From positions 3,646,501 to 3,710,500 of the forward strand of contig CP126199.1 in assembly GCA_030272155.1 (NCBI GenBank): a stretch of DNA of 64,000 nucleotides. Reading direction: 5' to 3'. The translations under genes and the position numbers were made by a program. Numbering within the stretch: position 1 is the stretch's first letter; each line of letters starts with the position of its first letter. This document shows, piece by piece, positions 3,048 to 64,000 of the stretch. A model generated the notes under the pieces. It was not told where the DNA came from and made no database searches. It was given only the letters and a program-made list of their open reading frames with translations. Source of the DNA: Tetradesmus obliquus (Eukaryota; Chlorophyta; Chlorophyceae; Sphaeropleales; Scenedesmaceae).

Positions 3048-5744
3048 TCATCCCGCCAGAACTGCTGCAGTGCTGGACAGCAGCAGCTTCTCAGCTCGTG
3101 CCAGCCGCAACAAGCAGCAGTCTAAACTCTGCTGCTTCAACAAACCCGCATCTGCCTGTGCCACGAGCCACGGGCCCACTCGAAGCTTCAGGAACAGCCC
3201 AAGCGCCTTGCTCAGGGCCCCCAGCGCCTGCTGCTGCGCCAGCCTGCTGAACGCTGACTCAGCATCCGCCTCGCTGGCAAAGCTGGTCAGCAGCTGCTGC
3301 ATCGTGTGCCGCCAGAGGAACGTCTCCTTGCTGGTCCACGTGGCACATGCGTCAAAGTCGATCTGCAGCAACAGAACAGGTTGATAGCAGCGGCAGCATG
3401 CTGATGTGGCCATCCTTCACACTCCATCCCGCCACTGGCACTGCCGACCCACGCCAGCCGGCTCACATTCAAATTCATACAAAGCCACTTTGCACACATC
3501 CCTCCAAAAGGGCACTTGTTGTTGCAACAGCACTCACCGGCTTCACGATGCTCAGTGGCAGCACGAAGCTGCCCAGCAGGTGGCCCACCAGCCCGGCCAG
3601 GCACAGCAGGCGGCGCGGCGCTGCCGCAGCCACCTCCTTCCACTGGTCCCAGATGCAGTACTGCAGCGTCACCTGCAGCAGCAGCAACAGCACCAGCAGC
3701 AGCAGCAGCAGCGCACAACTCGTCCTTTTGCACACAACAGGGCAGGGGGGCTCCTGGTCCAGCATTGCTTGCAGGTATGCAGTTGTGCATCTACCGTGCG
3801 TACAACTGTCATTTCACAAAACACACCGCAGTGATCATGGCAGTGCGCGATCTTTGAGCAGAAGAGCCCAGCCAGCCAGGAAGAAGAGGGGGGCCGATGG
3901 AGCTATGGCTTGATGGGTAACATGATGATGATGAGGAGGAGGAGGAGGAAGAAGAGGGGTTTCACGGTGTGCACAGGCAACTACGCCCAGCCAGCCAGCA
4001 GTGCCAGCAACTGCAACTGTGTTGGTGTTTAGAGTCTGTGCTGAAGAGAGCCGGCTGCAACACAATGCACACCTGGCTTGTGCATATGCAGAGAGGTACG
4101 CGGTTCAAACCCTGCGCTGCGCACCTTGTGGCTCTTGCTGACTGCCGCCAGGCGTGCTGCCAGGTGGCCGTAGTAGGGGTTGTAGCGCGCCTCCTGCAGG
4201 CAGCACTCCACCAGCACACGCACCACCTCGCGCGACTGGTCGCCCTGCAGCAGCAGCAGCAGCAGCAGCAGCGGCGGCGGCAGCAGGCGCAGTTGGATTG
4301 GCCACTGATAGTTTGTTTGTCATTTGACAATGGCAAATGCGCTTGCAAACTGCGCCTGCGAGGCTTGCGCATGCTAACAGCGTAGAGGCTTCAAAGCAGC
4401 AGCCAAGCAGGCCTCCCCACCGACCACGTGCCAGACTGCACGCCAAGGTTTCTCCACAGACACCACGCATGCTGACAGCGCTTTGCTATCTCTGCCCAGG
4501 TCTTCCCACCATAACTGATTCCCACCATAACATAAACCAACAAAAGAACATGCAAGTCGCACCACACACCTTCAGCGGCAGCCGCAGCAGCTTCTCGCAT
4601 GCCTCCGCACAATCCTCGCTCCCCATGATCGCCACAAACGCCGCGCGCCGCGCATCAGTCGTCATTCGCATGCCAGCCGCCAGCTGCAGCAGCTGCGCAG
4701 CACTCGCGCCGGCACCGGCACCGCCGGCAGCAACCCCATGATCGTCGTCGCCGTCTGCTGCTGCGGCGGCTGCTGCTGCTGCTGCGCTGCTGCTGTGCAT
4801 GTGCTCTGCGAGGAGGCCTGGCAGCAGTCCGGCTGCAGCGTCTGTGGCTGCAGGGTGCCACCACATGCCTGCAGACAGGACAGGCAACGTGCACACGGAA
4901 TGAGGAAGCAGCAAGCACGGAGAAGATGAGCTGTACTGGCAGATTAAACATGCGGCTGTGCCGCAGCAGACAAGCATTGCACTGCCAGAGGCACGCTGCG
5001 CATCAGCAGCAAGCCGGTTCACTCTCCTGTACATATCGGCTAGTTTGCCGGCGGTATGTGCTCAGACTGCACCACCGCTAGCTGCCTGCATGCCGCCATA
5101 CCACTGTCGGGCACTCTGTCTCTTCCTCATGCTCCCTCCTTTCTCACAACGAGCCTGTCAAAGACAGACTCATCCAACGGCAGACACAGCTGCAGACTTT
5201 TGTGCACGCCTCCACCTGCCAGCAAGCACATTTCAGCGAAAGTATATAGATAACAGTATCACCAGATGGTATGTGTGCCTCCGTGCCTGCCTGTCCCCGC
5301 ACGCACCTTTCTTGTTTGGCTGCACCAACTTGGCTCAGCTGATGTTAGCCAGCGTCACATCATCCACCCCACCCCTTCCAGAAATGAAATTCTGACAGCG
5401 TGTCTGTCTGAACCCTTCCCTTCCCTCCTTCTGTCAGCATACCTGTCATCAATGCACTCGCCAAGTGGCAGACACTTTGCAGCTCTCCGTGCATTTCCCA
5501 CTCACCAGCAAGCAATTCTAAATCCCGTTACACCAGCGTGCCTGTGTGCCTGCCTGTCCCCGCACGCACCTTTCTTGTTTGGCTGCACCAGCTTGGCCCA
5601 GCTGATGTTAGCCAGCGTCACATCATCCACCCCACTCCCCTTCAGCCACTTCAGCAGCCCAGGTTGCAGCACCGCAGCAGCACCGCCGCGCCCGCCACCA
5701 ATGTTCTGCCCAGCAGCAGCCTTGCCCTTGCTGCCGCCCGGCGG

Positions 5745-5785
<41 letters not shown>

Positions 5786-6491: not shown

Positions 6492-6549
<58 letters not shown>

Positions 6550-8065
6550 GCACCTGCACCTGCACATGCAGTCTGCTGCTGCTGCTGTTGCTGCTGCGCA
6601 CCTGTACATGCAGTCCGCTGCCACGATGCCTGCGCTGTAGCAGTAGGCCAGCAGCATGATCAGGTTGTGGCAGGCCAAGCCATCGTCAGCTGTATACGCC
6701 TGGCAGCACACAGAGAAGCACAGCAGGAGCAAGGGTGCAGCAGTGTCAAAAAGCAGTAGGCCAGCAACAATGATCAGGTTGTGGCAGGCCAGGCCATCAT
6801 CAGCTGCATAAGCATCGCAGCAGGAGCAGCAGCAGCAGCAGCAGCAGGCAGCAGCTCGTACTGCGGTAGCTGCTGGCTCGCATCAGCTTGAGCCACCAGC
6901 AAATGCATAGCAGATACACCAGCACCTTAGTACAGCACCCTGAACAGTACACACTAGCAGCTCAACACACCAACCCGCGGTTCACCCAACACACCAGCTG
7001 CTGAAAACAACATGCAATCAGACGTGCAATGCTTGCAGCTTGGCACAGCTGTTTGCTGTTGCAACCAAACACACCCACGTGCTGCATGCAGCGCCGCTGT
7101 TGGATGAACGTCACAACACTCACTGTGCCTGTCTCGATGCCGTTGCAACACAACACACCCACCTGCTGCATGCGAGCCACCAGCATCTCCAAAAACCGCG
7201 CGCTGATGTCCTGCGCCCGCGCCCCAGCCGCCAGCCCACCCACAAACACAGCCGCCACAGCCGCAAACTGCTCGGTGGCGCGCGGCCCTTCTGCCACTGC
7301 TGCCAGCAGGCCCGCTGAGACTGCATCAGCCACCAGGCGGCGGCCCTCTGATTCGTACAGGGCTAGGATGTCTCGGCAGATGGCCTGCAGGTTGGACTCA
7401 GCCAGCCTGTCACAGCATGCAAAACAACGGTTTGATACAGTGCCTGAATTATGTCCAATGAACCAAGGTAAATGCATGGTAGCATATGCAGGTTGGCAGT
7501 CCGTTTGCAGGAGACGCTGGGATACTTGGCGTGGGTAGGGCCGCAGTGAGAGTCCAGCAGCAAACAAATGACATGCATGCACGCTATAGCAATGTTTGCT
7601 TGACATTATGCTGGCAGAAGTTTTTCTGACTCTGCTGGTGTAAAGAGCCGGCAAACGCGTCAAGTCAGGCAGAAATAATGACGATACGCCTGCCACATGA
7701 GCATCTGTATGGCCAGGCGTTGCCACATCAGCAGCAGCAACCTCCACTCGACATGAGGCAAACACCCTGCTTGCTTCTCACCTGTTCAGCAGCCCAGTTA
7801 CGCGCCGCTGCACAGCAGGAGCCAACCCATCTGCAGCGCCGCTGCCCCCTGTTGCTGCTGCTGCCGCTGCTGCTGCTTCCTGTGCCCTCCGCAGTGCAGG
7901 TGGCACGTACTTGGCAGCACCTGGTGCAGCAGCATCCGGCGCCATTGCTGCTGCCTTGGGCCCTGCTGCTGCTGCTGCTGCCTGCTCATCTTCCTCATCC
8001 TCATCTGATTCATTGTCATCTTCGTTGCCACTGCTGCCACTGCTGCCGCCGCCACGTCTTCTGCA

Positions 8066-8106
<41 letters not shown>

Positions 8107-9097: not shown

Positions 9098-9132
<35 letters not shown>

Positions 9133-16415: not shown

Positions 16416-19400
16416 GAGTGTCTTGCGTGAATGCTGATACGGCAGTGTGTGTAGGCTGCTGCAGCGTGTTTTTGGCGTGCTGGTTTATGACGATCACTGT
16501 TCAGCCGCATGCACCTGCGGCAAGGTTTTGGCGCGCATTTTGGGATCACAGGCGGCGGTTTTGATGTGCACAGTGCGTGCTGCTGCGCTACGTACTACTA
16601 ACACAATCAGTTACGGCGTTGAACAGCAACCGGGACCTAGAGTGCAGGCTGCTGGTCACTCTATTGGATCAAAGCCTGCATGGGATGGGTGGTTGGCCCC
16701 TGGGTGCGCGCGTGCGCGGCTGTTTGGGAGTATTGTGACGGGGGTGCGTTAGCCAATTGACGGCTGTGCAGCGCTGCACAGCATGCGGGTATTCAGCAGC
16801 AGATTGGACTTGGGAGAGGAGGCATGCAGTGCACAATTTTGTGGCTGATGGATGCCTAGCCCGGCAATGGGTGGCCTTGCAGCAAGTGCTGCAGTTTTGG
16901 GCTAGCTGGGGACGCCTCTGAGCGTTGTTCATGCATTCCGCGCAGTAGTAGGTGCAGGTGTCTACAACGTGGCTGCGCTGCTCTGCCTGATGATACCTTC
17001 ATTGCTTGGGTCAACCATATGACCGATACTCGCTGTCTGCGGCCGGTCCATGCTGGCCTGCCGCGGTGTGTGTGTCCCAAGAAGTGTGGCTGTGTCACGC
17101 GCCGGTGCTGCCGCCTGCATTGCGGCAGCCATTTTGGCGGAAGTGGCAGGGCATTGCTTGCCAGCTCATCATCTGGAGGGACTCCCCTCCAGCTACTACA
17201 ATGGTCCTGTTTGATGCACTTGGCAGTTGCACAGTGATAGAGGCTGCTGTTGATTGGCAGCTGTGTGCTGCCTAGTTGAGAGATGTCAATGAGTTGTGTG
17301 CGCATCCTACTACTAATGGTGGTTCCTGCCCATCGCGTGTGTTGCTGTTGCTGCTTGGCTATGGTGGTGCGGCAGGTGGCGGCAGCGCAGCAGCAACGCA
17401 TGCAGCAGGGCAGGGTGGCGGCTTGCGCGCATGCCCTTAGAAAATCAAACCGGCATGTGCGCAGCCGCTGCACGCATGCTGCATGGTGGCTTGAGAGAAA
17501 GTGTGAGGTGAGAGTACGCCACATGGCACGTTCGATATTATACTAATACCATCCAGTAATCTAGGCCGCGGCGGCTGCGGTAGATGTCCAGTGGCGGGTA
17601 GGCTTCTGCTTGCATCCAATGTCAATGCTGCAGCAGTAATAAGCCGGTTGTTTGGTTGTTTGGGGGCTGCTTTGTTGGCGCTGGTGGGGGGAATGACAGC
17701 AGGCTTTCTCCTGGGCCTGTGCACCTTGCCATCTTCGGATGAGTGTGGCACTAGCCTGTTGTCGCCAGTGTCTGCTGGCTCTTGCGCAGCCCCCTTTGAG
17801 CATTGTTTTAATACGCCAGCGGCTCCATGCTGCTGCACTGGACGAGTGCGCGCGTGCACGCTCCCTGGCCGTTACTAATACGAGGAGAACTTTGTTTTCG
17901 GGATTGGCAGGAGATTTCCAGCCAATCTGGGCTTGGGGTGTCGAGCTGACTGTGGTGTGTCCATGCCTGGCTGCTTCGCTCCCATTGATTAGCATGCCAT
18001 ATGCGTGTTGTGGGGTTGTTAGGAGCTCCGCGCAGGCAGTGCAGCATGTGCTGCGTGTCTTGGGTGCTTCCCTTGTTGTGCCTGTGTGGGTGGCAGCAGC
18101 CAGCTAGGGCTGTGGGAGTGATGGCAGGTCAAACCGGAGCGCTTCTCAGCACTGTTGATACTACTCAGCGTGTGTCTGGCAGCTGCACAGGCAGCATTGC
18201 CTGCTGCAGCGGCTGGCGCGCTCTCAATCTGGCACCACCACAACCGCAACCAGTGCGTGTGTCACTCCTGGTGCGAATTCCGACCCGGCAAACTCTGCTG
18301 GTTGTACAGGGCGCCGCCGCCTGGCTCGCTGCATTCCTCCTGCATGCTGTTCCACACAAAGTGTCAGAGGGGCGTTCCTTAATATGGCAGAGTACGAGCT
18401 GAGGTCAATGTCCTGGGTGCGCAGAGATTGTAGTATCATCTCCTCTGCAGACGGTAGTAGCGTAGTATTTGTCACCTGGGCGGAGCGTGTTCTGGTTCAA
18501 ACCCTTGGGAAGGGGTATGGCTCAGATGTGTGGACCTGCGCATGCCGGTTCCTGGGTGCATGGAATTCCGTAGTACTATCGAGTTGCCGTGCAGCTTCCG
18601 TGGTGTCTGTTGATGTGATTGCAGCAGATTGTGTCGTGTCTGTCTGGTGGCGTATCTCCCTGCAATGCGTGTTGCTGGTGTTGAGCATGCACAGGTCTTC
18701 AGTGGTCTTGCTGATGTATCTGCTAGGCAGCAAAAGGTGCCGGCTTCAGCTTTAGCACTCCAGCACACACATGCGCTGTTGCTAATCACTTCCAGTTGCT
18801 GCATTGATGGGTCTGTTACCAACTGCAAGGTGGCAGCAGGCCTGCTACTAATACTATTACTGATGCCAGCTAGTTGTGCTTGGACGGCACCCCCTGTTGT
18901 TGTTGGGAGCCACACTCTGGCCTGTCCAGGTGGCAATTGTTGTCATTGTGTTGTGATCTCACTTGATCGCTGCGTGTTGTTGGCTGTGGGCAGCAGCAGG
19001 TGTTAGTAGCATCCACCTGCCTCTCGCCATCCTTGGTGCATGTGCAGTTTTGTCCCCACCATCCTATTACAGTCTAGCTGTGCTTCCTGTGCGGGCTGAT
19101 TCGCTGGGAGTGGCATGCTGCCTGTGCATATTATGCGTGTGGTTCACACATGCATCTTGTTTCGCATGCGCATGCGCAGTGGCACGAGATACATATACGT
19201 ACGTACTGAGCACTTGCTCGCTAGGATCAACCATGCTATGTAGAAGGCGCACAGCTTGCAGGCTTGTTGCAATCTTGAAGCAGGCTTGCAGTCAATTGAC
19301 TGCTTGGCTTCCATGTTGCTGTCCCTGGTCAGGCAATGCAAGCTTGCAAGGCTCAAGCCTTGACATGTCGGGCTGGCCGCTGCACCGTTGTTGCGCTGGG

Positions 19401-20101
19401 ATGGGGTTTGGAGCTGGGCGTGCACTGCAAGCATTGTGTTGGATCAATGCTCTGGGTGGCACGGACTCTGTCTGGCATGGCAATGCATGCCTCAAGTTCA
19501 TGCATTTCACCAACTTCGTACATGAACACAATCACTATTACATGTTTGGCTGGCGCTTGCCAGCTTGACTGATTGGCTGATGGGCGACTCAAAAGCAGCC
19601 GCAGGCGCTTGGCTCGAGCCAGAGCTCTGATATGCATGTGAGCATTGACAGAAACAGCATCCAGCTGGCAGCATGGCGCCAATTTCTGGTGTCTGCTGTG
19701 CCTCGCTGACGTGCATTGTTTACCTTTGCAAGCTGGCGCATCACCCCTTTTATGGGCTGTGCAGTTTGTGCGTTTTGAGCAGCGCTGCAGACTTCTAGTG
19801 CTTGCGCACATTACGTGGTAACATATGCCTTGGACATACTGACTGGATGAACAACACCGATGGCAGGAAGTGTGTACACGATGCCTGGCATCACAATGCA
19901 TGCTTGAAGATGCTCTTCGGCATCTTACAGCATGTAGCCCAAATCTGCAATTGCAAACTGGCTGCATGTAGCTGTAGCAGCTGCACAAACAACCCAACAG
20001 TTTTTGGGGGTCATGCACACTGTGCATGCGCGGATGGCATCTTTGCGTGATGATACCTTTTCCAGTTTTTAGAGGCAGTAACAGGCGTATCGGCCCTCTG
20101 C

Positions 20102-25727: not shown

Positions 25728-28700
25728 AGACCTGCGCAGCAACCGCAACAGCCGAGAGGTCTCGGAGCTGCTCACGCACTACAGCAGGCAGATCATGGGC
25801 GAGGTCACCAGCGTGGTCTTTGAACGGCTGCAGGAGCTGGAGCCAGGCAGCCCCGCAGCAGACGAGGCAGCAGCAGCAGGCGGCGTGCTGCCACACATCA
25901 GCAGCGTCGTCGCTGCCGCAGCTGCAGAGGCAGCGGCAGCCAAGGCGGCGGCGGCGGCGGAGGCGGCAGCAGCGAACGCAGCCGTGCTGGCGGCGGAAGC
26001 AGAGGCAGCTGCAGCGGTCGCGGCGGCGGCTGAGGCAGCAGCTGCAGCAGCGCCGGCGGCAGGTGACGGCAGCAGTCCTGCGACAGAAGCAGCAGCAGTA
26101 GCAGACGCAAACACTGCAGATGCGCTTGACGTCCAGCTTTCAGTGCAGACGGGGAGCAGCGGCAGCCAGCTGCAGCAGCAGCCGGGCGCATCTGCAGCTG
26201 TCCAGACATCATCGGGCGGTGCTGAGCCCCGCTCGCCTGGCGCTGCAGCAGCAGTGGCAGCCGCAGCAGCATCAGCAGCTGCAGCAGCAGCATCCAGCGG
26301 TGGCAGCAGCGCTGCAATGCTGAACAGGCAGCTGAGTGCGACAGTTGGTACGACTGGCCACCACCACAACAGCGTGCTAGGTGACGATGCCAGCAGCGAC
26401 GCGGGTGCAACAGCCAACAGCAGTGTAGCGCCAGGTGACCTAGCCTCCTTTGCAGGATCTGTGTCGGGGCGCTCGCTTGCTGGCGGCGGCAGCAGCAGCG
26501 GCACAGGCCCGCACAGCAGCGCGCCTGGTGCTGCCGGCAGCTGCAGCGACCTGCACGGCGCCGCGGCAGCAGCAGCAGCGCCCAGCCTTGCTGCTGCCGG
26601 CATCACAGGCGGCAGCAGCATAAGTGCGGCACACAACACCAGCGTGAGCTACCGCAGCCGCTACAGCCACGGCCTGCCGTGTGCTGTAGAGGTGCTGTCA
26701 TTTTTAATCGATTGTGTAGCGCAGCGGCGGCTGGATGGCGAGGGCGGCAGCAGCGGCATGAGCAGCGGCAGTGGCCCAGATGACGAGTATGCCATGTTTG
26801 GGCTGGCCATGGTGCATCGCGCGGTGCTGGCAGGGGGCCCTGCGCTGCAGCTGCACGAGGCGCTGCTGGGGCTGCTGCACCGGGAGCTGTTTGCGGCAAT
26901 GACAGCAGCGGTACGTTACAGGATGCGGCTAGGTGACAGGTTGCGCGTTTGTTACGGTTGCGCATTTGAAAACAAGCCGGATGTGTCCTGCAAGCTAGCT
27001 AAACTTGCTGGGTTGTTGGCGTGCTTGCTGCTCGTATGGGTGTGGACGTCGGAGGTGCCGCTGAACGCCCCAGCAGCCACTCTGCACGCGCATTCACAGC
27101 ATCAGCAACCCATGTGCATCATGTTGCTTTGCCTGTCTAAGAAGCATACGGAGACTCTCAGCCGCACCTTGGAACTGTGCAACTCAGTCTAAAATATTTT
27201 TGCATGCATGCTGCACTGCAGGCGCAGAGTGCCTCGCTGGGTGTGGTGGCGGGCATCTGCCAGCTGCTGCTGGCGGTGTGGCAGGTGCTGGGGCCCTGCA
27301 GCATGCTCCAGATGGAGGCGGTGCTGCAGAGCGTGCTGCTGCGCCTGGCAGACGGTGAGCGCGCTGCACAGCAGGCTTGGCCACAGCATGGGTAGTGGTA
27401 GCCAGCAGGCGTATAGCGCTTCGCTCCAGGCATGACGTCAGATGCAGCTTGCTGATGTATCTGTATGTTGTATGCTTGTGGCAAGAGTCCATCTGTGACA
27501 GCTATGCTGCTGATGGAGGCGGTGCTGCAGAGCGTGCTGCTGCGCCTGGCAGACGGTGAGCGGGCTGCACTGCCCGAGCCACCAGGCATTGGGTAGTGGT
27601 AGCCAGCAGCAGCCGGGGCGATGCGCCAAGTTCTGGATGTGACATCAGATGCAGCTTGCTTGCGTGCTGGTGTGCTTGTGTGCTTGTGGCGAGAGCCGTG
27701 GATGGTTGTCTGTGTCAGCCATGGTGCAGGATGGATGGGCCTTGTTGTAGCACGCAGCAGGGCAGTGCCCAGCCCAGCCATCCACCAAGGGCTGTAGCTG
27801 TGCACACCCCTGCAACCAGCGTGCTGTGTTTTGTTTTGTTGTGTGCGGTGCTGCAGGCAAGGATGCGGCATCGCCTGAGCAGCAGGAGGCCGCGCTAGAG
27901 GGCTTGCTGGACCTCACGCGCTGCCCAGGCTTCATGCACGCAGTGTTCCTGTCGTGCGACTGCAGGCTGGAGCGCAGGTGAGCGCCTGCTACGGCAGTAG
28001 CTGCTCTACTGTTCACAGATACAGCTGTGCTGGGATGCGCAGCCGTGTGGTTGCTGCCGGGGCGATATGGAGCGCTGTGATGGCATCGGCTGCTCACATT
28101 GAATGCTGCGACAGACACTTGTGCAACTTGCTCATTCACTGTCATCAGCGTCTCATTCACTGTCATCAGCGTCAGTAACCATCGCTGCACGCTTGCCACA
28201 TCTCCTCCCACGTACAATGTGCCTATGATATGCATAAATGCTTCCTGTGTTGCTTGCTGCTGCGCTGCAGCAACCTGTTTGAGGACCTGGCAGGCCTGCT
28301 GTGTAGAACTGCCTTCCCTGGCGGCAGCAGCGGCAGCAGAGGCCTGGGCCCCATGCACCTCATCAGCTTGGAGGCACTGCTGGCGCTGCTGGCTGCGCTG
28401 GCAGAGAGGTGGGTGATTTGTCATAACATATGTTATAACATAGTTGTAACGTGCTCGTTGCTCAGCTAGGTATGTGGTCAGCCATCAGGAAGGCCAGCAG
28501 CAGGTTGCTGGTGAAGCGCCCAGCAGCTTGTTACAGGTGAACAGGAGCTGCTGTTATCACAAAACAAAAGGGGATGCGTGTGATGGCAGGAATGTGGCGG
28601 CGTGTCCTGCTGGCACTGCTGCAGCGTGAGTATCCTCAGCGCAACACCAGTATGCGCTGAAATGCAGAATGCACACGCACATCTGGCATGCTGCAGTCAG

Positions 28701-35718: not shown

Positions 35719-35806
35719 GGGGGCTGCAGCTGGTGCCCAGCCTGGACCCTGAGGTGGGTGGGTCTGGTGGCAGTGCTTTTCTGTGCTGTTGCACCCTTCC
35801 TGTGTT

Positions 35807-38919: not shown

Positions 38920-38962
<43 letters not shown>

Positions 38963-40103
38963 GTCGGCTTGTGCACATGGATGTTCACATGGATGTTCTG
39001 CGATGCCTGCAGGCCGAGGTGACAGTGGCTGAGCTGGTGTGCGTGGTCAGCAAGGCCATGCTGCTGCTGCCTGTACATACAACCAACATTTCCGCTCTTT
39101 CGCACGACCTGCAGGCCGAGGTGACGGTGGCTGAGCTGGTGCGCGTGGTCAGCAAGGCCATGCTGCTGCACCTGCCGGTGCTGGTGGCGCTGCCTGGCTT
39201 TGCCTCGCTGTGGCTGGCAGTGCTGGGGGCGCTGGCAGCAGCAGCAGCCACGGGCAGCGAGGCGCTCAGCGAGGCGGCGGCAGCAGCGCTGCAGAACCTG
39301 CTGATCATGCTGCATGAGATGGTGAGCCGCAGGCTTTGTGTGGGTATGTGGGTATGTGGGTGGGAGTGCTGGAGGGGTTCATGGAGCGGCAAAAGGGCGG
39401 GTGGAATGCTGGTGGGCTGGCTGGGGTGGGCTGAATGACACGTCGCTGCATGCAAGGCATGCAAGGGCGTGAGGGCTGCGCGTGCGTGATGCCTGTCTTG
39501 TCGGTTGCTGTGGGATGCTTGTGGGCTGGCTGGGGCGGGCCGACTGCTTCACCTTGCATGCAAGGGTGTGAAGGCTGCGTGTAGCTGTAGTCGCCTTGCC
39601 CATCAGTTGCTGTGTGCTTTTGTAAGCTGCGAGCCATGTGTGTTGTGTCAGATGCTAGAACCTGCTTCACATTTCGTGAAGCACCTTGACATCATGTGGG
39701 TAGTGCGTGCTGTGCAGCCTTGGCAGACCCTCCACGCAGGATTACGGGGATGTGACTGATCTTGCCGTCTCTGACCGTATTGCTGTTACTGCTGCTGCTG
39801 CTGCTGCAGGGTGTGCTGCAGCCAACCTGGGCTGACTCGCAGCTGAACTTGTGGCAGCACACGTGGCACGTAGCACACAAGATCTCCTCCAACCTCAACC
39901 CCCAGATGCTGAGCCCTGCAGTGAACCCTGCCAGGCAGCAGCAGCAGCAGTCTGGGCCAGCAGGGCTAGCGTCACTGCCGCAGGTGCAGCAGCAGCAGCA
40001 GCAGCAGTATGTAGGGGTTGTAGAGGCGGCAGCAGCAGCAGTGTCAGACGGAGGTTTGGCGGGGGTGCCTGCAGCAGCAGTTCCGCCGCAACCTGCAAGC
40101 TAG
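23708..40103 (+). CDS. GBF1: GNOM/GBF1-type Sec7 ARF guanine-nucleotide exchange factor
   Basis: 1869 residues, 27 exons: 23708-23815, 24040-24115, 24451-24582, 24915-25033, 25359-25461, 25730-26910, 27222-27354, 27857-27977, 28271-28408, 28786-29194, 29459-29722, 30672-30908, 31332-31443, 31764-31892, 32519-32654, 33172-33336, 33606-34026, 34285-34389, 34687-34820, 35054-35114, 35404-35622, 36313-36366, 36590-36679, 37167-37466, 37981-38142, 39115-39321, 39810-40103. All phases close. Role: GDP/GTP exchange on ARF GTPases in ER-Golgi traffic. The N-terminus (ISAVITAMRQNAKW) starts the DCB domain; an Ala/Ser-rich insert fills about residues 220-480; the HUS region spans about 490-705. Sec7 is about 815-1044: KKGFQFLQ, LNKTTIGELLG, KLPGEAQKIDRI with catalytic Glu960, AYSVIMLNTDRHN. 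HDS regions follow (RYGDCIRSSW; LLRNRDRLSLLWPPVFDHL). Order and motifs match GNOM, not the BIG family. Eleven exon-boundary duplications lie in its introns. Confidence 0.95.
25691..25729 (+). repeat. CTG run forming the 3' end of ARF-GEF intron 5
   Basis: About a dozen CTG triplets run into the acceptor CTGCAG before exon 6 (first base 25730). The same arrangement precedes exons 16 (33142-33171), 20 (35023-35053), 22 (36267-36312), 24 (37134-37166) and 27 (39787-39809) of this gene. Confidence 0.9.
27311..27712 (+). repeat. ARF-GEF exon 7 end plus intron, tandem duplication of about 200 bp
   Basis: The last 44 bases of exon 7, its GTGAGC donor and about 150 bp of intron (from 27311) are repeated from 27512, offset 201 bp. 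The exonic part is unchanged (MEAVLQSVLLRLADG), whereas the intronic part has diverged. The copy has no acceptor of its own next to the copied codons. Confidence 0.9.
28722..28777 (+). repeat. 28-bp tandem repeat next to exon 10 acceptor
   Basis: Two identical 28-bp units (beginning TGCTGATGCATCTCC) lie directly before the acceptor of exon 10 (28786). A purely intronic duplication. Confidence 0.92.
29944..30765 (+). repeat. Five-copy (plus two decayed) array of the start of the Sec7 catalytic exon
   Basis: Acceptor plus the first ~90 bases of exon 12 (VLDAFTSTFN to FKLP) occur at 30110, 30249, 30389, 30533 and, as the functional exon, 30672; spacings 139, 140, 144 and 139 bp. Decayed fragments start at 29944 and 30028. 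Each upstream copy keeps a CAG or TAG acceptor but diverges right after the codons for KLP, before GEAQ, and shows no donor. Copy 30110 has lost one T, copy 30389 has gained five bases, and 29944 has a TGA. Confidence 0.95.
31408..31650 (+). repeat. ARF-GEF exon 13 end, three copies
   Basis: The end of exon 13 (LSGIYHSICS with donor T|GTGAGTG) begins at 31408, is repeated almost exactly at 31521 and again, diverged, at 31626. The third copy reads GIYRTSYS before another GTGTGT. The first copy is taken as functional because it continues the Sec7 frame. Confidence 0.9.
31844..32013 (+). repeat. ARF-GEF exon 14 end, two copies
   Basis: The ERTSKPRGSALILPPA codons and donor AG|GTGAG occur at 31844-31897 and again from 31957 (offset 113 bp). 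The second copy lacks a nearby acceptor. Confidence 0.9.
32334..32560 (+). repeat. ARF-GEF exon 15 start, two copies plus a decayed third
   Basis: The acceptor GCCGCCAG and following codons (VRHCFDTMMF) occur at 32383 and at the functional 32519, offset 136 bp; a weaker third match starts near 32334. Confidence 0.88.
32621..32890 (+). repeat. ARF-GEF exon 15 end, three copies
   Basis: The codons for AALDGLRTATR and the donor CG|GTGAG are present at 32621-32660, about 32738-32780 and about 32838-32880 (GGACGG anchor at 32631, 32748, 32848). The first is functional; the others lack an upstream acceptor. Confidence 0.9.
35585..35990 (+). repeat. ARF-GEF exon 21 end, four copies separated by CTG runs
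   Basis: LQLVPSLDPE codons plus donor AG|GTGGGT occur with anchors at 35601 (functional), 35732 and 35871, and a donor-less fragment at 35966. Each spacer repeats a CTGTGCTGTTGCACCC segment followed by a CTG run of different length (35675-35718, 35812-35860, 35943-35960). The copying and the triplet tract appear linked here. Confidence 0.92.
37002..37200 (+). repeat. 28-bp repeats plus duplicated ARF-GEF exon 24 start
   Basis: Units of GTGAGCTGCTGCCACTGCCA plus eight further bases repeat nearly three times before 37083. A copy of the exon 24 start (EALRWVVMHS codons) lies at 37083, 93 bp before the functional one at 37176. The copy diverges after the codon for Ser. Confidence 0.88.
37413..37690 (+). 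repeat. ARF-GEF exon 24 end, two identical copies
   Basis: The last 54 bases of exon 24 (WLYLVEMLAKLAEHPDLQ) plus GTGGG are repeated 220 bp downstream at 37633 without a mismatch by eye, suggesting a recent event. Confidence 0.92.
38083..38600 (+). repeat. ARF-GEF exon 25 end plus intron, about 265-bp tandem duplication
   Basis: Exon 25 end (PPVELLSKK to DMPQ, donor GTGAGC) and about 200 bp of intron are repeated with offset 267 bp (GTGGAGCTG at 38092 and 38359). The copy has two extra A residues in the Lys run, so it is frameshifted, and its donor is GTGGGC. Confidence 0.92.
38732..39160 (+). repeat. ARF-GEF exon 26 start, four copies
   Basis: Copies of AEVTVAELVRVVSKA codons start at 38732, 38866, 39013 and 39115 (functional), spacings 134, 147 and 102 bp. 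The 38866 copy has lost its acceptor (CTGTAA for CTGCAG). Copies 1 and 2 are followed by CTG runs (the second 38922-38962). Copies 1 to 3 end without a donor. Confidence 0.93.
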
Positions 40104-49882: not shown

Positions 49883-49913
<31 letters not shown>

Positions 49914-52900
49914 GGATCTAGCAGCAGCCTCGCGCCATGGTCAGCCATTGCTGCTGTTGCTGGTGGTATGCCCAGAGCAGTTGGTGCCAGCTGAGGCAGC
50001 AGCAGCGCATTCATTGCCCCAGTGCTAGGCACCCCAGCGGCTTGGCTGACCTGCACCCCTCCCAGGCTCATCTGCTGCAGCTGCATCACTAAGGGCACTG
50101 CAGCGGGGCTGGAGTAAGCCGGCATCTGCCCAGGGCTGTGGTGCTGCCCGTGCAACTGCTGCTGCTGCTGCTGCATGAAGACAGGCGAGTGCAGCATGTG
50201 GTGCTGCTGCTGCTGCTGCTGCTGCTGTGAAAAGTAACCCCCAGCTGCAGCAAGCTGACCAGGGCTCATCATGGCATCGAGCGGAAGGGTGCCATGTGCC
50301 TGCTGCACCCCCACCGCGTCCGGCATTGCTGCCCAGCTGCTGCTGCTCGCGCTGCTGCTGCTGCTGCCGGCAGCTGCACCCATGCCGGACAGAGGCATGA
50401 TGCCACGCAGGCCCATCTGTCCACCTGCTGCACCAGCATGGAAGTGACCCATGCTGCTGCTCTGTGGCATGATGCTGTGCATGCCGCCAGGCCCTTGGAT
50501 CATATACAGCTGCTGCTGCTGCTGCTGCTGCTGCAGCTGTAGTGCTTGCATGCCTGCCTGTCCAGCAAAGGTGCCCTGCCGTGTGCTGCCAGCGCCATCA
50601 GCAGTGAAGGGCGCTGGGATGCAGCACGCGCCTGTGGCGGGCTGCAGCAGACTCGTGCCAGGAGGCGTATCGCTGCCCGGCCGGACCTGCAGTTTGCACA
50701 TGATCCAGAACATGACACCAACCTAAGTGTCAGCAGGAGCCAAGCTGTAGAGGTTTTGCTGGTGGCATGCCCAGAGCAGTTGGCGCCAGCTGAGGCAGCA
50801 GCAGTGCATTCATTGCCCCAGTGCAAACACAGTGGTAATGTTTTTCTGTTTTGCCTGCAGCTATGGGCGCATGGCGGATCGGGGCAGGCCTGGCAATGGT
50901 GCATGCAGCCGCCCCAAGCATCAGCTGCAAGCAGCATGCAGCACAAGGTCAACCACGTGTTTGACCATACGTTTGACCAACTTTGACCAAGTTTGACCGG
51001 GTTGCTGGCTCACCTCCTCCGGCGTGTGGGCAAAGAAGCAGAAGCGTTTGAGGCAGGAGGCTCCCTCGCGGCACATCTTCGTCTTGTACCTGACAGTGTG
51101 CAGGTGCAGCACAAGCAGCAGCAGGGAGTGAGTCCCTACGCATAAGCTGAGCTTGCATGAGGAAACTTAAAGGTACAGCGATAAGTGGTAAGCAATACGC
51201 GGCTCTGGGGACTAGTCCTGCAAACCCATCAGGCACTGCGCAGCAACGCACAGCTGGCCGCTGCTGTTGGAGCTCAGTGGCTGCCTTGGTTCTGACAGAC
51301 ATTCTGGTGCTCCAAGCGAACAGTATTTGCCAGCTGGCTGGCGAGAGCAATTAATTCTATGCTGACTTCATCTGCTGCCTCTTTGGGCTCACCTGAGGGG
51401 GTGCATCTGCATTGACGGAGCAGCAAGGGACAGCGCAGGCAAACCAACCAGGCAAACAAACGGCAGTCAGCACTTACTCAGGTTGAGGACCCGCTGTGCG
51501 GCAACATGCTGCAAGCGCATGGGTCCTGTGTGATGCACAACATCATGCACAGGCAGCACACAGCATTTGCGACATATGCTGTTAACGCTGTGCAGCTGCC
51601 GACCTTGCAGGCACTGCTGCAACAGTCTGCACTCCCTCAAATGCACGCTGCAGCTCCTGCTGCTGCTGCTGCTGCTGCCAGCAGGTGCAGGTTCCTCACC
51701 CAGTACTCAAACATGGAGTGTGTCATGGTGCAGGCCTCGCCCCTGGGACACTCGCCACCCTGCAAGCAATCGGCAGCGGGCTGATTGTCAACTGCGCATG
51801 CTGCAACTGTATATATTGTCAGCTGCGCATGCTGCACTGTATCTATTGTGAACTGCGCATGCTGCAACAGTTTTGGCTCGCGGCTGCACTGCAAATGACC
51901 TCCGAGCAATGTAATAGAGGCTTGAGGTTAACGATGTTTGCTGCGCCAGAAGCCGATGATAACACTGCCTCTGCTGCTGCTGCTGCTGCACTGCTGCTGC
52001 AATAAAGGCTTGACCGTGCAGCAGGTGCAGCTGCTGCCGCACCTTCTGCATGTCCGGGCACACTTTGATGGCATAGTTTGACAGCAGCAGGCAGCGCCTG
52101 CGTGCTCGCTCCCCGTGATGAGCGTACTGCAGGACAGATAACATGCGGGACACGCCATATGATTTCACATGTTCGGCTGCAGGCTGTGACACTGCAGCAG
52201 AGACGGTGCAACTTTGCACAGCAACACTGTGCATTCTAGTGTGGTTGGTTGCCTGCTGACCAGGTGTAAGGCAGCTGCATGCCTAGTGCAACCAATAACC
52301 GCGTGTGTCAGGCAGGTTTTTGTTTCAGGTTTTGCTTCTAGTGCTGCAAGAACGACGCGTATACGTGCACATTCCGTGCGACATCAGCAGCGTAAGGAAA
52401 TGACTGCTGCAGCTAACCCACCGGGCAGCAGCTCCAGTCATGCTGCCCTGACCGTGGGCAAGGCAGCACCTGCAGCGGCCAGCAGCAAAATATCAATGCC
52501 ATGCCATTGCCTCGGATTTGAGCAGCACGATCTGCCCATTGTTCATCTGCAAGAGCTGCAAGAGCTGCAACAGTGCTACTGCTGCTTTGTGCAGCCGTGG
52601 GAGCTCACTGCTAGTGCCGCTTTACCAGCTGTTCCAGCTGCCGGCCTGACTTTGGGCAATGAATGAACTATGATAGTACAGCTTCAGCTACTGAATGTGT
52701 GTCGACGCTGCTCAGACTGGCTTTTGCCTGCGCATCTGCAACTGCACATGCACACATCTGTGCCAGTGCTGGTGAGCGTTGCACTCAGTGAGCAGCATTG
52801 TCACTTGCCTTGAACAGACACATCCTGTAGCTGTCCACATCATACAACCCGTTTGCTTCATTGTACTCTGCAATGCATAAAGACATGTTTGAGAACTGGT

Positions 52901-55795: not shown

Positions 55796-55990
55796 AAGCA
55801 GCGTGGGCTGCCACCAGCTTAGGGCGGTAGGTGGTGATGGCCAGTGCATTGCTGGCCCGGTGCATTAATGGCCCAGTGCATTGCTGGTTTGGGCGTCTGT
55901 GCGGCTGGCGTGGCGATGACGATGCTTCTTCAAGCCGCATGTGCTGCCACCAGCTTAGGGCGGTAGGTGGTAATGGCCCAGTGCATCCGC
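55796..55990. repeat. About 135-bp imperfect tandem duplication
   Basis: GCTGCCACCAGCTTAGGGCG and the following GTAGGTGGTGATGGCC segment at about 55807-55856 recur at about 55942-55986, with GGTTTGGGCG strings at about 55697 and 55885 suggesting a further partial unit. No gene recognised here. Confidence 0.8.
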
Positions 55991-56358
55991 TCCACCTGCA
56001 CAATGAGACACCGCAACAACAACATGGTCGGCCAAAACAGCGTGACAAGTTATGTTGTGACTTGCGCCGAGGAATGAAACCATAGCAACGGCCCTAACAT
56101 GCAAGAGCCCGACATGTGGTGTGCTGCATCCGATCAGCAGAGCATTACTGTGCATTAGGCTCTTGCAGAGTGTGTTTCCTGCAAGTCTGTACACGCAAGC
56201 CTGCATGCATGCTGCCTTGTGCCACCACCTGCCGCTCCTCAGCAGCGCACCTGGTTAGGGGTGAGCAGCATGTAGCACGCATCCGGCACATAACTCTGCG
56301 CAGCAGGCAGCAGGCAGCACGTGAAAGCAGCGTGAGCGTTCCCTAGGGGACAGGCCTG

Positions 56359-57129
56359 TCATATGTATTTGTGAAGCATGTAATTTGAATCAACCGTGCC
56401 CTGAGCAACCAGGAAAATACAGCCCATCTCACTATGCATTGCATACACGTAACCGTGGTGAAGTGCACAGCAGCACCAGGGCTGCACGGCTGCTGATCTG
56501 CTCAGCTTGCTCTTGTAATGAACACAGCACAAGTTAAGGAAACAAAGGCATTCACCCTTGCTTTCACGACACATTTGAATGAGACTTGCTGTGTACAGCA
56601 CGGAAGTCAATGCAGAGAATGTGCTCGCACTGCTGTTCACTCCCACCTGCAGGTTCCATATGTTGTCCAGCACAGTTGCGCCGTCAACGCTGCCGTTGCT
56701 GCTGCTGCCTTCCTGTACTTTGCAGCTGCGGAACGCTGCCAGGTCAGCAGCAGCAGGCTGGCCGCCCGTGCGGAACTCAGAGCACCAGCCTGCAGCACAG
56801 CTCAGCACACATGGCTTTCTTGAGTCGGCTGTCGGCAGACCACTTGTGCAGCACGCTTATGCAGCATGCAACAAGTTTAATGTTATTGCAGCAACCACTT
56901 GCAATGACAGACAACCCTGTAGACGCGGTCGACAGCTGTATGCTGTAACAGATCTCCCTCGGCCTGCGCTGCGCTGTCACCTGAGAGTGCAGCCAGGTTG
57001 CCGGCAGCGTCTGCGTACGCGTCGATCTGCTGGTTGGGTGGCGTGTCCGCCACATCATCTGCGCCCAGCATATCACACGGCTGGGCCGATTCATGCGTGT
57101 GCATCAACCCCAGGTAGTGCCCGCACTGC

Positions 57130-57162
<33 letters not shown>

Positions 57163-60100
57163 GCACATGGGCAGGCAATGCAGATGGGTGTCAGGCTCGA
57201 ACCTGGGCCTACTGCACCTGCGCTTGCTGTGATGTTCAAGGAGATGATGTGGGTCTAGCTGCTGTCCGATGCAGGCCGGCGGCTGGCGCACCAGCAGCAC
57301 GCGTATGCACAACACTGCACGCATCTGTAAACCTTTTGACTGATACAGTCCCAGTACGCTCAATGATGTTGACACCTACTTCAGTTGAATGTGATCAGGA
57401 TGCTTACAAGCCACACACGAATTCTCTGTCAGCAGCAGGCGCTGCTGCTGCTGCTGTTGATGCTGTGTTGGCCAAGCAGCTGGACGCATCATATCCTGCA
57501 ACTTTCAGCCCCACCTCATGTGCAAATGTCGCACCGCCGCCATCCCAGAAGCGTGCAGAGTTGTGCGCTTTAGGGTTCATCATGTCCCAGGAGATGAACA
57601 GCCAGTTCTCATCAGATGCATCCTCACTCCAGGTGGGTGAGGGCTTGGCAGATGCAGCAAACCAGGGACCCTGCAAGGGAGTGTTGTTGTTTTGGCGGCA
57701 CGTCCACCAAGGTTTTGCTTGCAGAAAACTAGTTGGATGTGCTTCTCCATTGTTGAAAGCTGCTGTGGCTGGGCAGCAGCAGCCAAATAAAGTACTCAGC
57801 TGCATCAAGTTGCGCTGCCTGGTAGCTTCCCAGCATTGCTAAAATGGGCACACATGCATGGCCACCCCACGTGTAACACTGCATACAGCACAGAGATCAC
57901 CCGCTAGCAGTCACTACCCTCTTCACAATGCAGCTCGCAAGATCTGCCTGATGAAGATATCAATGATACACCTATAAAACCCTGGAGCCGCACGATACAG
58001 AGTGCCAATATAGATATTAATGCTCACTCACCTTTGCCCCTGAGTAGCCCAGTGAAATGCTGGCACACACCGATGTGCTGTCTGATGTGTCGCAGTACGT
58101 GCTGTCCTCGGAGGAGCCCGCAACAAGCACGTTGAGCACCTGCTGCTGCGTTGACAGCGCTGCAACTGAAGGTTGGCTCGCAAGTGCCTTCAAGCAGGTC
58201 ACGCCAGCGGTGCTGACGCTGTTGTGTGTGCAGGACTGGGGCACAGGGCAGGGACGGCGTAACGCCATACAGGCAGCAGGTGGTAAAAGGCACAGCTAAG
58301 AGGTAGGAATGTGGCCATACGTGGTATGCAGTGCTTTATTGGCTGGACGCAGGGCGTCTGCCTCAGTCAGGTGCAGGGGTGTGTGTAGGCACCTGCCAGT
58401 GCACATACTTTCACCATTGCTGCTGCTGCTGCTGCTTCTGCTTCTGCTGCTGCTGCTGGGCACATCTCTGCTGGCAGCTGCGCTGCATGCAGCCTGCGTC
58501 CGCGCACCTGCCACGCCTGCAGCGAGGGCAGCAGCAGGTAGGGGTGCTGATGCACATCTGACCGCACCTCCAGCAGCTTGAACCTGCAGCAAACAAACTC
58601 TCCGTCAACAATGTGACACATGCATGGGCGGTGACCAAACAAATGCACCAACCTCAGTGCGCTGATTACGCAGCACGCACAGAACATGTCAGGCACTCAC
58701 TGTATGGCTGTGCCTGCATACAGCTTGTTGTTTGTTGCTGCCTAGCATGCTGTGGCGTTTCAGCCAGACAGAAAGTTTCCATGCATGACAAAAACAGGAC
58801 AATCCGTGCTGTACATGCACAAAAGGTCCCGTACATAGTCATTGCCCTAGCAAGTGCACCGCCAGCAGTGTGTGATGCCATATGTAACTCTTTCACCTCG
58901 CAGGCACTCACTGTATGGCTGTCCCTGTGTACAGCTTGTTAGCCACATCCACTAGCCGCTGCCCTGCCTGCAGAGCGTCCCAGTCAGCAGGCGGCAGCAG
59001 CACGCCATCCCGCTTGAACCTCAGGCCTGCAACACAACGACAGCAGCAAGTGCGGCAGCGCTGTAGGAATCACTTGCTGTCAACGTATTCACATGCTGCT
59101 TGCATAGAGATGCATCTGCACAAGGGGTGCTAAGTGCAAGGCTGTACAGACGAAGTCGAGCATCCATGGGCCAGCTGCTTCAAAACCTTCCGATTCAGTG
59201 ATAAAACGCAGCAAGATGACGCCAGCGGCTGCGCAGTGCACGTGATCTCTTAAAGTTAGGATGCAAGCACACTACATATACAGACAGTTCCCAGGCTGCA
59301 GCACTCACAATGGAACACCACAGGCACAGTCAGCGGCTTGAAAGTGGCCAAGCTTGCGGCACTTGATGCCGTGCGAGCAGCAGAACAATCCACAGGCCCT
59401 AAAAGCACACCCGCTAAGCCTGATGGGCTCCAGCTGCGCATGCTACACAGCATGTCAGTTAGGCTCTGCAGTTTTGCTGCGCTGCCAGACCCCGGGGTCA
59501 GGCCTGCTGTTGCTGCTGCCGGCTGCGTGGCGGCGGCAGTGCTGCTGCTGCCGGCGCGGCTGGCGGGCGCGGGCGCGGCGCCTGTCATTTGCGACAGTAG
59601 CGCATTGGTGAGATCCGCTGCATCATTTGCACGCAGCCGGCGGCTGGCAGCACCAGCACGGACGAATTCAAACTCTTTCTGCTGCTGTTGCTGCTGCTGT
59701 TGCTGGAGGCGCCTGCCGCGTTGCTGCTGCTGCTGCTGCTGCTGTGGTCTGCTACTGCTGGCCACACCCTGGCGCTCTGTGGCGTCTTTGCTTGCCTGTC
59801 GCCTGTACCATGCATTCAGCTGCTGCAGGTCCAGCAGCTGCTGTACCTCAGCCTGCAGCTGATCTGGATCAACGCTTTCGTATGACACGCTACCGCTGCT
59901 GCTGAACTCGCGCAGCAGCTGCAGCAGCGCACTGCTGCGCGAGAAGCGCAGGTAGCTGAGGATATCCTGCGCCACCCGGATGAAGGGGCTTAGGTCCACG
60001 CTGCTGCTGCTGCTGCTGCCGCTACCGAGCCTGCTGCCGGTTGTGCTGCTTGCTTTCACAGCAGCAGCTGCTGCTGCTGGTGTTGCCACTGGCCGGTCAG

Positions 60101-60880
60101 CCCGTGTCACAGCAGTCGGCCCACTCAGGGGCGCAGCTGCATGCATGTCAGCCTGTCCAATCATCAAAGATTTAGCTGATGAGGCCTGGCTGGCTATGAT
60201 GCCTGCTGGCTGCGCATTTGCTGCTGCATCTGCTTGGGTCTGCAGGAGCTGCAGGAAGCTGCGAGTAGCAGCTGCTGTTATGACGTCGCTGTCGTTGTAG
60301 GTGCTGTAAAGCTCCACTACCCAGGCTGCACAGTGGATCAAAGGATGCAGCAAATAAGCGTGTTAGCAATGAGTGTTGAGGCGGCAATACGTCAGGCTGT
60401 GTCGTCCCTGCTGTCGCTCAGTTGCAAGACACTTGGCTGGTGGCAATTGCTGGGCAAGTGTAGAAGTGCAGCTCAGAGTCTGCAGGCTCCCATTGGCATA
60501 GCAGGCCGTCAAATTAGGCCAAGGTTGCACGCAGCTGTTCCCAGATACATAGTATGCAACTTCTGCACTGGCCGAAAGCACCTGACTAAGCACACTGCTT
60601 TCAAACACGGCTGCTGCCCACCTGGTGTGTCGCGTGATGCCAGCAGCTGCTCAGCTGCTGCACTGCCTGGTGGTGGCAGCTGCTGCTGGCCCCCTTGCCA
60701 GCTGCTGCTCTGATGCTGCTGAATGGCTGAACGCGCCTTGTTCTTCGACACTGACACGCCTATGAGTGCTGCGACTCCTGCTGCACATGCCACCATGACT
60801 GTGCCAACAATGAGCCATTTCCAGCGGTGTTTGCTGCCCTTGCTGTTGGCCCAAGGCCAGCAGCTTTGACGCTTTAGCAT
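56359..60880 (-). CDS. Type II membrane-anchored M43-like (pappalysin) metalloprotease, 3' end unresolved
   Basis: Exons 60880-60622, 60325-59309, 59026-58912, 58583-58508, 58235-58032, 57670-57515, 57125-56981, 56789-56647 join in frame for 705 codons. Residues about 19-46 (WKWLIVGTVMVACAAGVAAL) follow basic residues: an uncleaved signal anchor placing the catalytic part in the lumen or outside. A long Gln/Ser/Ala-rich stalk follows. The catalytic part begins at VPVVFH and continues with QQVLNVLVAG and SISLGY, as in M43. The zinc site HECGHYLGLMH (608-618) fits HExxHxxGxxH, with the intron between Glu609 and Cys610. Then CDMLGADDVADTP, the M43 GDxVxDTP motif. DNIWNLQ lies where the Met-turn (NYMDY) is expected, but no Met is seen. 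Reading on without splicing ends at 56359; a further exon is equally possible. Gametolysin (M11) is a less likely alternative. Confidence 0.78.
58691..58940 (-). repeat. Exon-end duplication in the metalloprotease gene
   Basis: The donor and last coding bases of exon 3 (58902-58940) recur at 58691-58729, offset 211 bp, in the following intron, with a few mismatches. The donor GTGAGT is kept. Confidence 0.85.
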
Positions 60881-63254: not shown

Positions 63255-64000
63255 TCAGCCGCTTCTTTGCCGCGGTGCGCAGCGGATGATGTCATCCACG
63301 CGCAGGATCATTTCTGCTGCCTCTGTGGCGCTCAGCAGCACCTGCGGCACCAGCACAGCACCAGCAGCACAGTTGTGCGTGAGAACAAGCAGCACAGCAA
63401 CAAGGAACCCAACCCCTACTACACATGTGCTTTGTAAAAAGCAAGCCAGTGGCTCAACGCACCGCGCACATAGTACTACGGCAGGCTGTGGCCCGCGACT
63501 TGCATAGCACGCGAGCAGATGTGTACCCAATGGCATGTTGACATACAGAGACTGCAACCAGGTTTCAGGTGCACGTCAGCATTCTAGCAACAGCGTCTGC
63601 TGATCATGCGTTCAACTACAACAGTGACAAACACCGCATGTGGCCAACCGCCTGTATCATGTCACATGATGTTTGATGCATGTATCGTCAGCCGCCGCAC
63701 CTGCGGCTTGACCTTGAAGCTCTCATAGATGCCCAGCTTTTGATCCCCCAACCAGGCGTGTGTGCTCATGTGATGTGCCTATCAGTTGCACACCCCATGC
63801 CATTCATGATGCCGCACCTGCTGCTTGACCTTGAAGCTCTCGTAAATGCCCAGCTTTTTATGCCCCCAACCAAGTGTGTGTGCTCATGTGATGTGCCTAA
63901 CCCACGCACACCTCATGCCATGCATGATGGCGCACCTGCTGCTTGACCTTGAAACTCTCGTAGATGCCCAGCTTTTGCTGTCCCCAACCAAGAGTGTGTG
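63255..64000 (-). CDS. CCT2: Chaperonin CCT subunit beta, C-terminal end (gene continues beyond window)
   Basis: Two exons are visible: 63977-63936 (QKLGIYESFKVKQQ) and 63341-63255 (VLLSATEAAEMILRVDDI, then IRCAPRQRSG and TGA). Together they match the C-terminus of CCT2 (LLSATEAAEMILRVDEI...CAPR in plants), the beta subunit of the cytosolic TRiC/CCT chaperonin that folds actin and tubulin. The small exon is present three times in tandem; the copy at 63977-63936 is taken as functional because only it keeps an acceptor (GGGGACAG). Splicing is phase 0. The remaining subunit lies to the right of the window. Confidence 0.92.
63701..63977 (-). repeat. CCT2 penultimate exon, three tandem copies
   Basis: 42-bp exon copies at 63977-63936, 63859-63818 and 63742-63701 sit in units of about 118 bp. 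All keep the GTGCG donor; in the two downstream copies the acceptor CAG is changed to CAT or to the GAT of GGGGGATC. The copies differ by one to a few bases (one has Lys-Pro-Gln for Lys-Gln-Gln). Confidence 0.93.

Follow-up and report, generated by a model that had tools for sequence, protein, structure and literature searches.

Local copies of exon edges, with their splice sites, in introns of Tetradesmus obliquus

Segments of exon edges, each taking in an exon-intron junction, recur on the same strand within the adjoining intron in a 64-kb stretch of the Tetradesmus obliquus genome (C9:3646501-3710500, hereafter the window) and on other chromosomes. A preliminary description of the window had reported such repeated boundary segments, of 25-270 bp, in six of its genes; a junction-anchored search gave 16 pairs at 76 window junctions, and the exon-edge copies are real and not peculiar to the window. 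On our gene models, they prefer exon edges, lie locally on the same strand, have a characteristic unit length and periodicity, and add to the length of the intron; they lack a partner splice site, and some contain frameshifts. There is, in our estimate, about an even chance that they arise from an exon-linked tandem-duplication process with a unit near 118 bp, from which selection leaves the edge-straddling events.

The main sample was 264 kb from three chromosomes of one genome, comprising the window, 100 kb of C1 (block A) and 100 kb of C2 (block B). Three further stretches, chosen non-randomly, were held out: two regions with Sec7 paralogues, one on C15 and one on C10, and the right flank of the window (5 kb, containing a chaperonin gene). 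Exons were predicted ab initio using a two-strand gene-finding hidden Markov model, which was seeded with 14 exons of an ARF-GEF gene picked by eye and then self-trained; the gene-model set used contains 354 exons in 44 genes, and exons of at least 50 bp with a coding score above 5 were termed confident. Introns of 61-1499 bp were retained (from 211, five of at most 60 bp and five of at least 1500 bp were omitted), providing 402 exon-intron junctions (76 in the window, 128 in block A and 198 in block B) as well as 44 held-out junctions.

Alignment of exon-terminal 60-mers at a score of at least 34 gave a direct match in the own intron for 56 of 402 (16/76 in the window, 25/128 in block A and 15/198 in block B), versus 0 of 402 for inverted matches in the own intron and 0 of 402 for matches in an unrelated intron of another gene, which excludes chance. 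When the score was lowered to 24, the corresponding counts were 69, 7 and 5. With up to 120 bp of exon searched, a same-strand copy was present in the adjacent intron at 59 of the 402 junctions. Copies were also observed at 12 of the 44 held-out junctions (1/16 on C15, 4/14 on C10 and 7/14 in the chaperonin stretch), with no inverted match among the 44. The resulting 71 pairs (59 and 12) include, within the 59, eight array rows whose members were modelled as exons, three in the window (two at the edges of 30249-30299 and one at 30533) and another five in gene A4, a Clp protease. At least one copy is carried by 60 of 223 introns (54 when array rows are left out), namely 13/38 in the window, 23/64 in block A, 1/8 on C15, 4/7 on C10, 5/7 in the chaperonin stretch and 14/99 in block B, the lowest of the three large stretches, and the copies are spread unevenly among 33 genes (permutation p = 0.0096).

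The same-strand local repeat unit includes the junction itself, and the alignment ends exactly there in 47 of the 59 pairs, in 41 of which the contiguous match past the junction is at most 8 bases. Own-intron copies of exonic 40-mers become rarer with distance into the exon: 55/402 for the terminal 40-mer, then 34/394, 14/366, 6/349, 2/305 and 1/247, with 0/178 at 140 bp and 0/137 beyond. Intronic 40-mers gave 13/384, 13/378, 11/366, 12/354, 13/330, 14/314 and 4/266 with increasing distance from the junction, and no inverted copy of either kind of 40-mer was detected at any distance.

The preliminary description had offered, as its simplest null, that duplications occur everywhere and that those at edges are merely the ones noticed. 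Masked self-BLAST returned 77 local direct-repeat clusters (22 in the window, 36 in block A and 19 in block B), comprising 56 with one exonic and one non-exonic copy, 10 exonic in both copies and 11 non-exonic, at least two of which are edge copies. The 67 clusters that are not exonic in both copies were taken as admissible, and each repeat shape was placed at random in its own block. An exon is involved in 56 of the 67 (84%) against 26% under random placement (p = 2e-22), clearly so in every block, as well as in 16 of 18 full-length repeats (p = 1e-8). This null thus fails on the ab initio models, which supports the link to exon edges; of the description's two proposals, a generally high duplication rate or a process tied to splice junctions or transcription, this link stands, with splicing or transcription as a conjectural cause.

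Tandem arrays were located with Tandem Repeats Finder independently of the exon models, which served for labels only. The window and blocks A and B hold 83 arrays with units of at least 15 bp that are not CTG-like. Sixty-seven have units of 15-47 bp (29 in introns, 23 in exons and 15 intergenic), none of which straddles an exon edge in the 264 kb, versus 7% expected (p = 0.007). Fifteen have units of 105-274 bp, 13 of them at an edge by label versus 45% expected from random span placement (p = 0.001); inspection showed the remaining two (38788 and 63694) to be copies of exon edges as well, giving 15/15 (p = 6e-6). One array, with a 69-bp unit, lies within an exon. The long-unit arrays are set apart from the short ones because unit length and location both differ, and an explanation by minisatellite-type short arrays was rejected, given the 105-274-bp units of the edge class and the lack of any short array at an edge. 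The purely intronic cases of the preliminary description, at 28722, 37002 and 37930, do exist (units of 28, 28 and 22 bp), but they belong to this separate short class.

The main rival to exon-linked duplication is that duplications are born uniformly, and that exon-internal ones are purged and noncoding ones, with both copies neutral, decay faster, so that only those at exon edges stay visible. In exonic pairs one copy is under constraint, so that they should indeed remain recognisable longer, and the intronic parts of units do decay faster, with residual similarity broken by indels visible by eye at 31444 and 37467. Uniform birth, however, predicts that near-identical duplications are mostly noncoding, yet an exon is involved in 9 of the 11 clusters at 95% identity or above (27% expected, p = 2.5e-4) and in 5 of the 6 full-length repeats at 85% identity or above (p = 0.004). 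Nor does it sit well with the edge placement of the long-unit arrays (13 of 15 by label and all 15 as inspected, against 45% by random span placement) or with the 44 of 67 short-unit arrays in noncoding DNA, which indicate that noncoding repeats are detectable. We therefore regard uniform birth as unlikely, and infer that the exon bias arises when duplications are born rather than through their retention.

The 71 offsets between source and copy fall into two groups, of 50 pairs at 72-163 bp and 21 pairs at 201-334 bp; the range of 164-200 bp is empty (largest-gap p = 4e-4). The median of the first group, the first units, is 118 bp, or 117 bp in the 44 pairs without array rows. The upper group consists partly of second units, since 24 of the 71 junctions have two or more copies, with a consecutive spacing of 100-174 bp. 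Modelled introns with copies have a median length of 450 nt (n = 50) versus 291 nt without (n = 151), and subtraction of the offset brings the former to 262 nt (p = 0.28); the copies are additions, each intron with copies gaining roughly one unit in length. Among first-unit pairs, all 22 donor cases have 54 nt or more of intron in the unit and 25 of the 28 acceptor cases have 45 nt or more, and the exonic share is below uniform (Kolmogorov-Smirnov p = 2e-4), local alignment trimming the exonic length. The shortest modelled introns are 57-67 nt, save four of 43 nt within the Clp-protease array. As the intronic part, which in nearly all cases reaches at least about 45-54 nt, comes close to these, a survivor filter appears probable, under which the true splice site would need sufficient intron of its own between itself and the copy.

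Where the splice dinucleotide is retained, the copied sites score like the real ones, with medians of 6.5 versus 6.5 for donors, the donor score taking in three copied exon bases, and 6.9 versus 7.0 for acceptors (random GT, -0.7; random AG, -0.2). These medians leave out the copies that have lost the signal: two of the 34 donor copies lack GT, and eight of the 25 acceptor copies lack AG. At the other end of the copy, no partner splice site beyond control introns was found (mean percentile 0.58 for 34 donor-type and 0.53 for 25 acceptor-type copies). The reading frame is ignored (offsets modulo 3 of 17/21/21 over 59 pairs), 16 of the 71 copies have non-triplet gaps, and some contain stops. With splice sites kept, the partner site missing, the frame ignored and frameshifts in some, the copies look like intronic relics rather than exons. 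The intron gain that the preliminary description mentions as a proposed result of such duplication does not find support for these copies either, as the copies sit inside modelled introns that run on to the next exon and their partner sites do not exceed chance.

It is quite improbable that the copies are functional, either as alternative exons or as decoy splice sites under selection. The retained GT and AG sites do equal real ones in score, and the gene finder does select some copies as exons, but partner sites no better than those of control introns, disregard of the frame, the non-triplet gaps and the lost AG and GT signals all argue against function. The combination of acceptor, donor and frame expected of mutually exclusive or tandem alternative exons was not seen in the copies as a class, although single cases may differ. 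Conserved alternative exons were rejected given the absent partner sites, and protein repeats because the offsets disregard the frame.

The intronic part of the unit is recognisable in a minority of pairs. Intronic homology, which repetition of the whole unit would predict, was detected in 23 of the 67 testable pairs, their aligned columns being 80% identical (1631/2044), and the 15 long-unit Tandem Repeats Finder rows are whole-unit arrays. By eye, the introns after 37467 and 31444, which were scored as lacking homology, do align with indels, so fast intron indels may explain part of this weakness. Over all pairs, differences occur at 99 of 2166 0-fold sites (4.6%) and 102 of 620 4-fold sites (16.5%), and at 90/1885 and 83/535, respectively, in the 63 pairs without the eight array rows. 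This synonymous excess rests on block A (p = 1e-5), the values being 0.28 for the window, 0.38 for block B and 0.37 for the held-out stretches. The remaining contrast between exon and intron might stem from copies of allelic origin, from conversion by the exon or from local alignment picking the best-preserved exon piece. At the block A junctions 20159, 37393 and 15269, synonymous and nonsynonymous differences number 5/0, 7/1 and 6/2, as if both copies had long been translated.

Several of these observations weigh against exon-linked duplication followed by selection. Within one unit, the exonic stretch of a pair is better kept than the intronic stretch, where neutral decay predicts about a twofold difference, and the 4-fold/0-fold ratio is 3.6 versus about 2 for a neutral copy (p = 2e-5). 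Ten of the 77 clusters are exonic in both copies, some being arrays scored as exons. The exon edges are ab initio predictions, and inspection by eye revealed at least one model error, an exon end placed at 30983 with its donor at 30908. Finally, the analysis gave no molecular cause for the exon bias.

A rather improbable alternative is that, in repair between the diverged homologous chromosomes of a diploid alga, synthesis runs past an exon edge and is then end-joined, leaving the edge and splice site of the other allele in the intron. It would explain both the edge restriction and the preserved splice sites, since homology holds in exons and stops at their edges. The synonymous excess, the strength of the kept splice sites beside often unalignable flanking intron, and the intronic part of the unit, seldom below 45 nt, are in line with it, and PMC7955037 calls a related Scenedesmus likely diploid, with alternate haplotype contigs. 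Against this, the excess is significant in block A only, and arrays with units up to 98-99% alike would need another step. Gene conversion, weighed by reasoning alone, was set aside because it cannot lift the 4-fold/0-fold ratio past 2.

An assembly artefact, by false local duplication from unmerged haplotypes or by sequencing stutter, is very improbable and, together with functional copies, among the least likely readings: the alga is probably diploid, but substitutions, indels and stops are present in the copies, splice signals have been lost, divergence within arrays is graded, and random misjoins would not yield an exon-edge preference and a narrow unit on several chromosomes. A dispersed or introner-like element was also rejected for the two stretches searched, of 655 bp and 2019 bp, as their only matches in the own genome (17 contigs totalling 104,662,953 bases; the search passes over simple and very frequent words) were the stretches themselves and one neighbouring 34-bp piece. 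Homoeologous gene copies were likewise not seen at the DNA level for the 2-kb ARF-GEF stretch; two diverged Sec7 genes are present, on C15 and C10.

In the exon-linked process that we favour at even chance, tandem duplication with a characteristic unit of about 118 bp would act on exonic DNA of this genome. Duplications falling fully within exons would mostly be purged by selection, while those straddling an edge would persist, because the original splice site still works and the extra unit merely joins the intron. The extra unit would consist of an exon end, donor and intron start, or of an intron end, acceptor and exon start; each event would add one unit to the intron, repeated events would build arrays of two to five units, and the copies would then decay. 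A more far-reaching proposal, to which we give a clearly lower though still appreciable chance, is that a distinct process, perhaps faulty inter-homologue repair, may place copies of exon edges, splice sites included, in the adjoining introns at steps of about 118 bp and be a main source of intron lengthening and of spare splice sites.

Within the window, 14 of the 22 self-BLAST clusters pair an exon with non-exonic DNA, two are exonic in both copies and six lie outside confident exons. On inspection, two of these six proved to be copies of exon edges, namely 63694-64000 and 38828-39058, the latter duplicating the exon start at 39115. Among the 16 pairs of the junction-anchored search, three are members of the Sec7-exon array 30107-30671 that were modelled as exons. 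The source edges and copies are as follows (window coordinates).

5570-5643, reverse strand: NOM1 exon end (donor side), source edge
5307-5380, reverse strand: intronic copy of this NOM1 exon end, 263 bp off, with a 2-bp gap and an in-frame stop
6639-6699, reverse strand: NOM1 exon start (acceptor side), source edge
6753-6813, reverse strand: intronic copy of this NOM1 exon start, 114 bp off, acceptor AG gone
27299-27354, forward strand: ARF-GEF exon end, source edge
27500-27555, forward strand: copy of this exon end with donor, whole tandem unit about 200 bp
30107-30671, forward strand: four intronic tandem copies of the Sec7 exon start and preceding intron, unit about 139 bp, true exon from 30672
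29939-29984, forward strand: partial copy of the Sec7 exon start, farther upstream
31219-31251, forward strand: weak copy of the exon start 31332-31364 (83%; 1 synonymous and 4 nonsynonymous differences)
31408-31443, forward strand: ARF-GEF exon end, source edge
31521-31556, forward strand: identical copy of this exon end with donor, 113 bp off; another at 31626-31649
31843-31892, forward strand: ARF-GEF exon end, source edge
31956-32005, forward strand: copy of this exon end with donor, 113 bp off, 4 synonymous and 0 nonsynonymous differences
32519-32558, forward strand: ARF-GEF exon start, source edge
32383-32422, forward strand: upstream copy of this exon start with acceptor, 136 bp off
32621-32654, forward strand: ARF-GEF exon end, source edge
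32738-32771, forward strand: copy of this exon end with donor, 117 bp off; another at about 217 bp
35597-35622, forward strand: ARF-GEF exon end, source edge
35728-35753, forward strand: copy of this exon end with donor, 131 bp off; another at 270 bp
37082-37112, forward strand: copy of the exon start at about 37175-37205, 93 bp apart, both fused as one exon in the gene model
37410-37466, forward strand: ARF-GEF exon end, source edge
37630-37686, forward strand: copy of this exon end with donor, 220 bp off
38081-38142, forward strand: ARF-GEF exon end, source edge
38349-38410, forward strand: copy of this exon end with donor, whole tandem unit about 268 bp, 1-bp gap
39115-39161, forward strand: ARF-GEF exon start, source edge
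38866-38912, forward strand: upstream copy of this exon start, 249 bp off; others at 102 and 383 bp
58912-58940, reverse strand: exon end in gene model 55930-60796, source edge
58701-58729, reverse strand: copy of this exon end with donor, 211 bp off
63694-64000, reverse strand: tandem copies of a chaperonin exon end, unit about 118 bp, true end near 64124, beyond the window

Pfam supports the window gene models for NOM1-like MIF4G and MA3, Sec7 and LRR domains, with three of four window proteins matched, as were all seven proteins chosen from other stretches. The Sec7 match, obtained with a protein joined by hand with the copies omitted, covers profile positions 17-182 of 183, spanning two exon joins and reaching up to a third. 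On exons past the window end, Cpn60_TCP1 (chaperonin) was matched, the name CCT2 being that of the preliminary description, and elsewhere Clp protease, protein kinase, aspartokinase-homoserine dehydrogenase, nucleoporin, H2TH and CAF1. The Pfam search with gene model 55930-60796 gave no match, and no F-box was among the listed Pfam matches of window proteins, though LRRs were matched. Simple repeats including CTG/CAG runs mask 4-7.5% of the window and blocks A and B and show up in the predicted proteins as Ala, Gln and Ser runs.

Four local features were noted in addition. Immediately 5' of the exon copy at 37082, three 28-bp units (37003-37083), each of the form GTGAG...TTTGCAG, individually have the look of a tiny donor-to-acceptor cassette. 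The 69 bp at 49957-50025, part of the first modelled exon of the LRR gene, occur again at 50756-50824, outside the gene model, at 96% identity and a spacing of 799 bp, which exceeds that of the junction-anchored copies. In a Clp-protease-like gene of block A (L004:9320-9859; block A 19320-19859), an array of 4.6 units of 118 bp with 98% match was modelled with each unit as a 75-bp exon and a 43-bp intron, for which one repeated exon is a possible reading. Between 24727 and 40103, the ab initio gene finder takes exon-edge copies as extra exons, which results in false tandem peptides, for example MLAKLAEHPDLQ occurring twice.

Parallels to these copies exist in the literature. According to PMC4974935, the potato RdRp gene carries a tandem duplication crossing an intron-exon boundary, a single event that provided a new spliced intron with a recruited donor, whereas in Tetradesmus there are dozens of events, at donor and acceptor edges alike, with the copy in a modelled intron lacking a partner site. 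The tandem genomic duplication of an AGGT-containing exonic segment in the sense of Rogers, as outlined in a review (PMC3443670), shares with the Tetradesmus copies a short intragenic tandem duplication that doubles splice signals. There, however, the segment is exonic and the span between the two AGGT becomes a new intron, while the Tetradesmus unit straddles an existing edge, and no new intron between duplicated exonic AGGT was found among the Tetradesmus copies. Ubiquitous internal gene duplication (Gao and Lynch 2009, as cited in PMC4974935 and PMC3443670) likewise lies within genes and can take in whole introns with flanking exon. Small circular DNAs termed microDNA, described in PMC5587290 as 100-400 bp long and derived from regions of high gene density, resemble the Tetradesmus units in length and gene-rich origin; their reinsertion as exon-edge tandem copies is speculation. 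Searches of the open-access literature turned up no description of duplication confined to exon edges, either in this alga or in a relative, nor of a genome with such duplications at a quarter of its introns and with a narrow unit. Boundary-spanning tandem duplication is a known parallel, and the scale, the narrow unit and the edge restriction seem to be new.

As far as we know, boundary-spanning duplications have been documented in print as single cases. With copies in 60 of 223 introns, one genome would allow a large-scale study of how duplicated splice sites arise, decay and are now and then used. The copies are a measurable source of intron growth and raw material for intron gain. They also form a systematic annotation trap, since a predictor can take them for extra exons, and the annotation of this genome may contain errors of this false-exon kind. 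If confirmed genome-wide, the narrow unit and the exon preference would demand a mutational mechanism able to recognise exons or exon edges.

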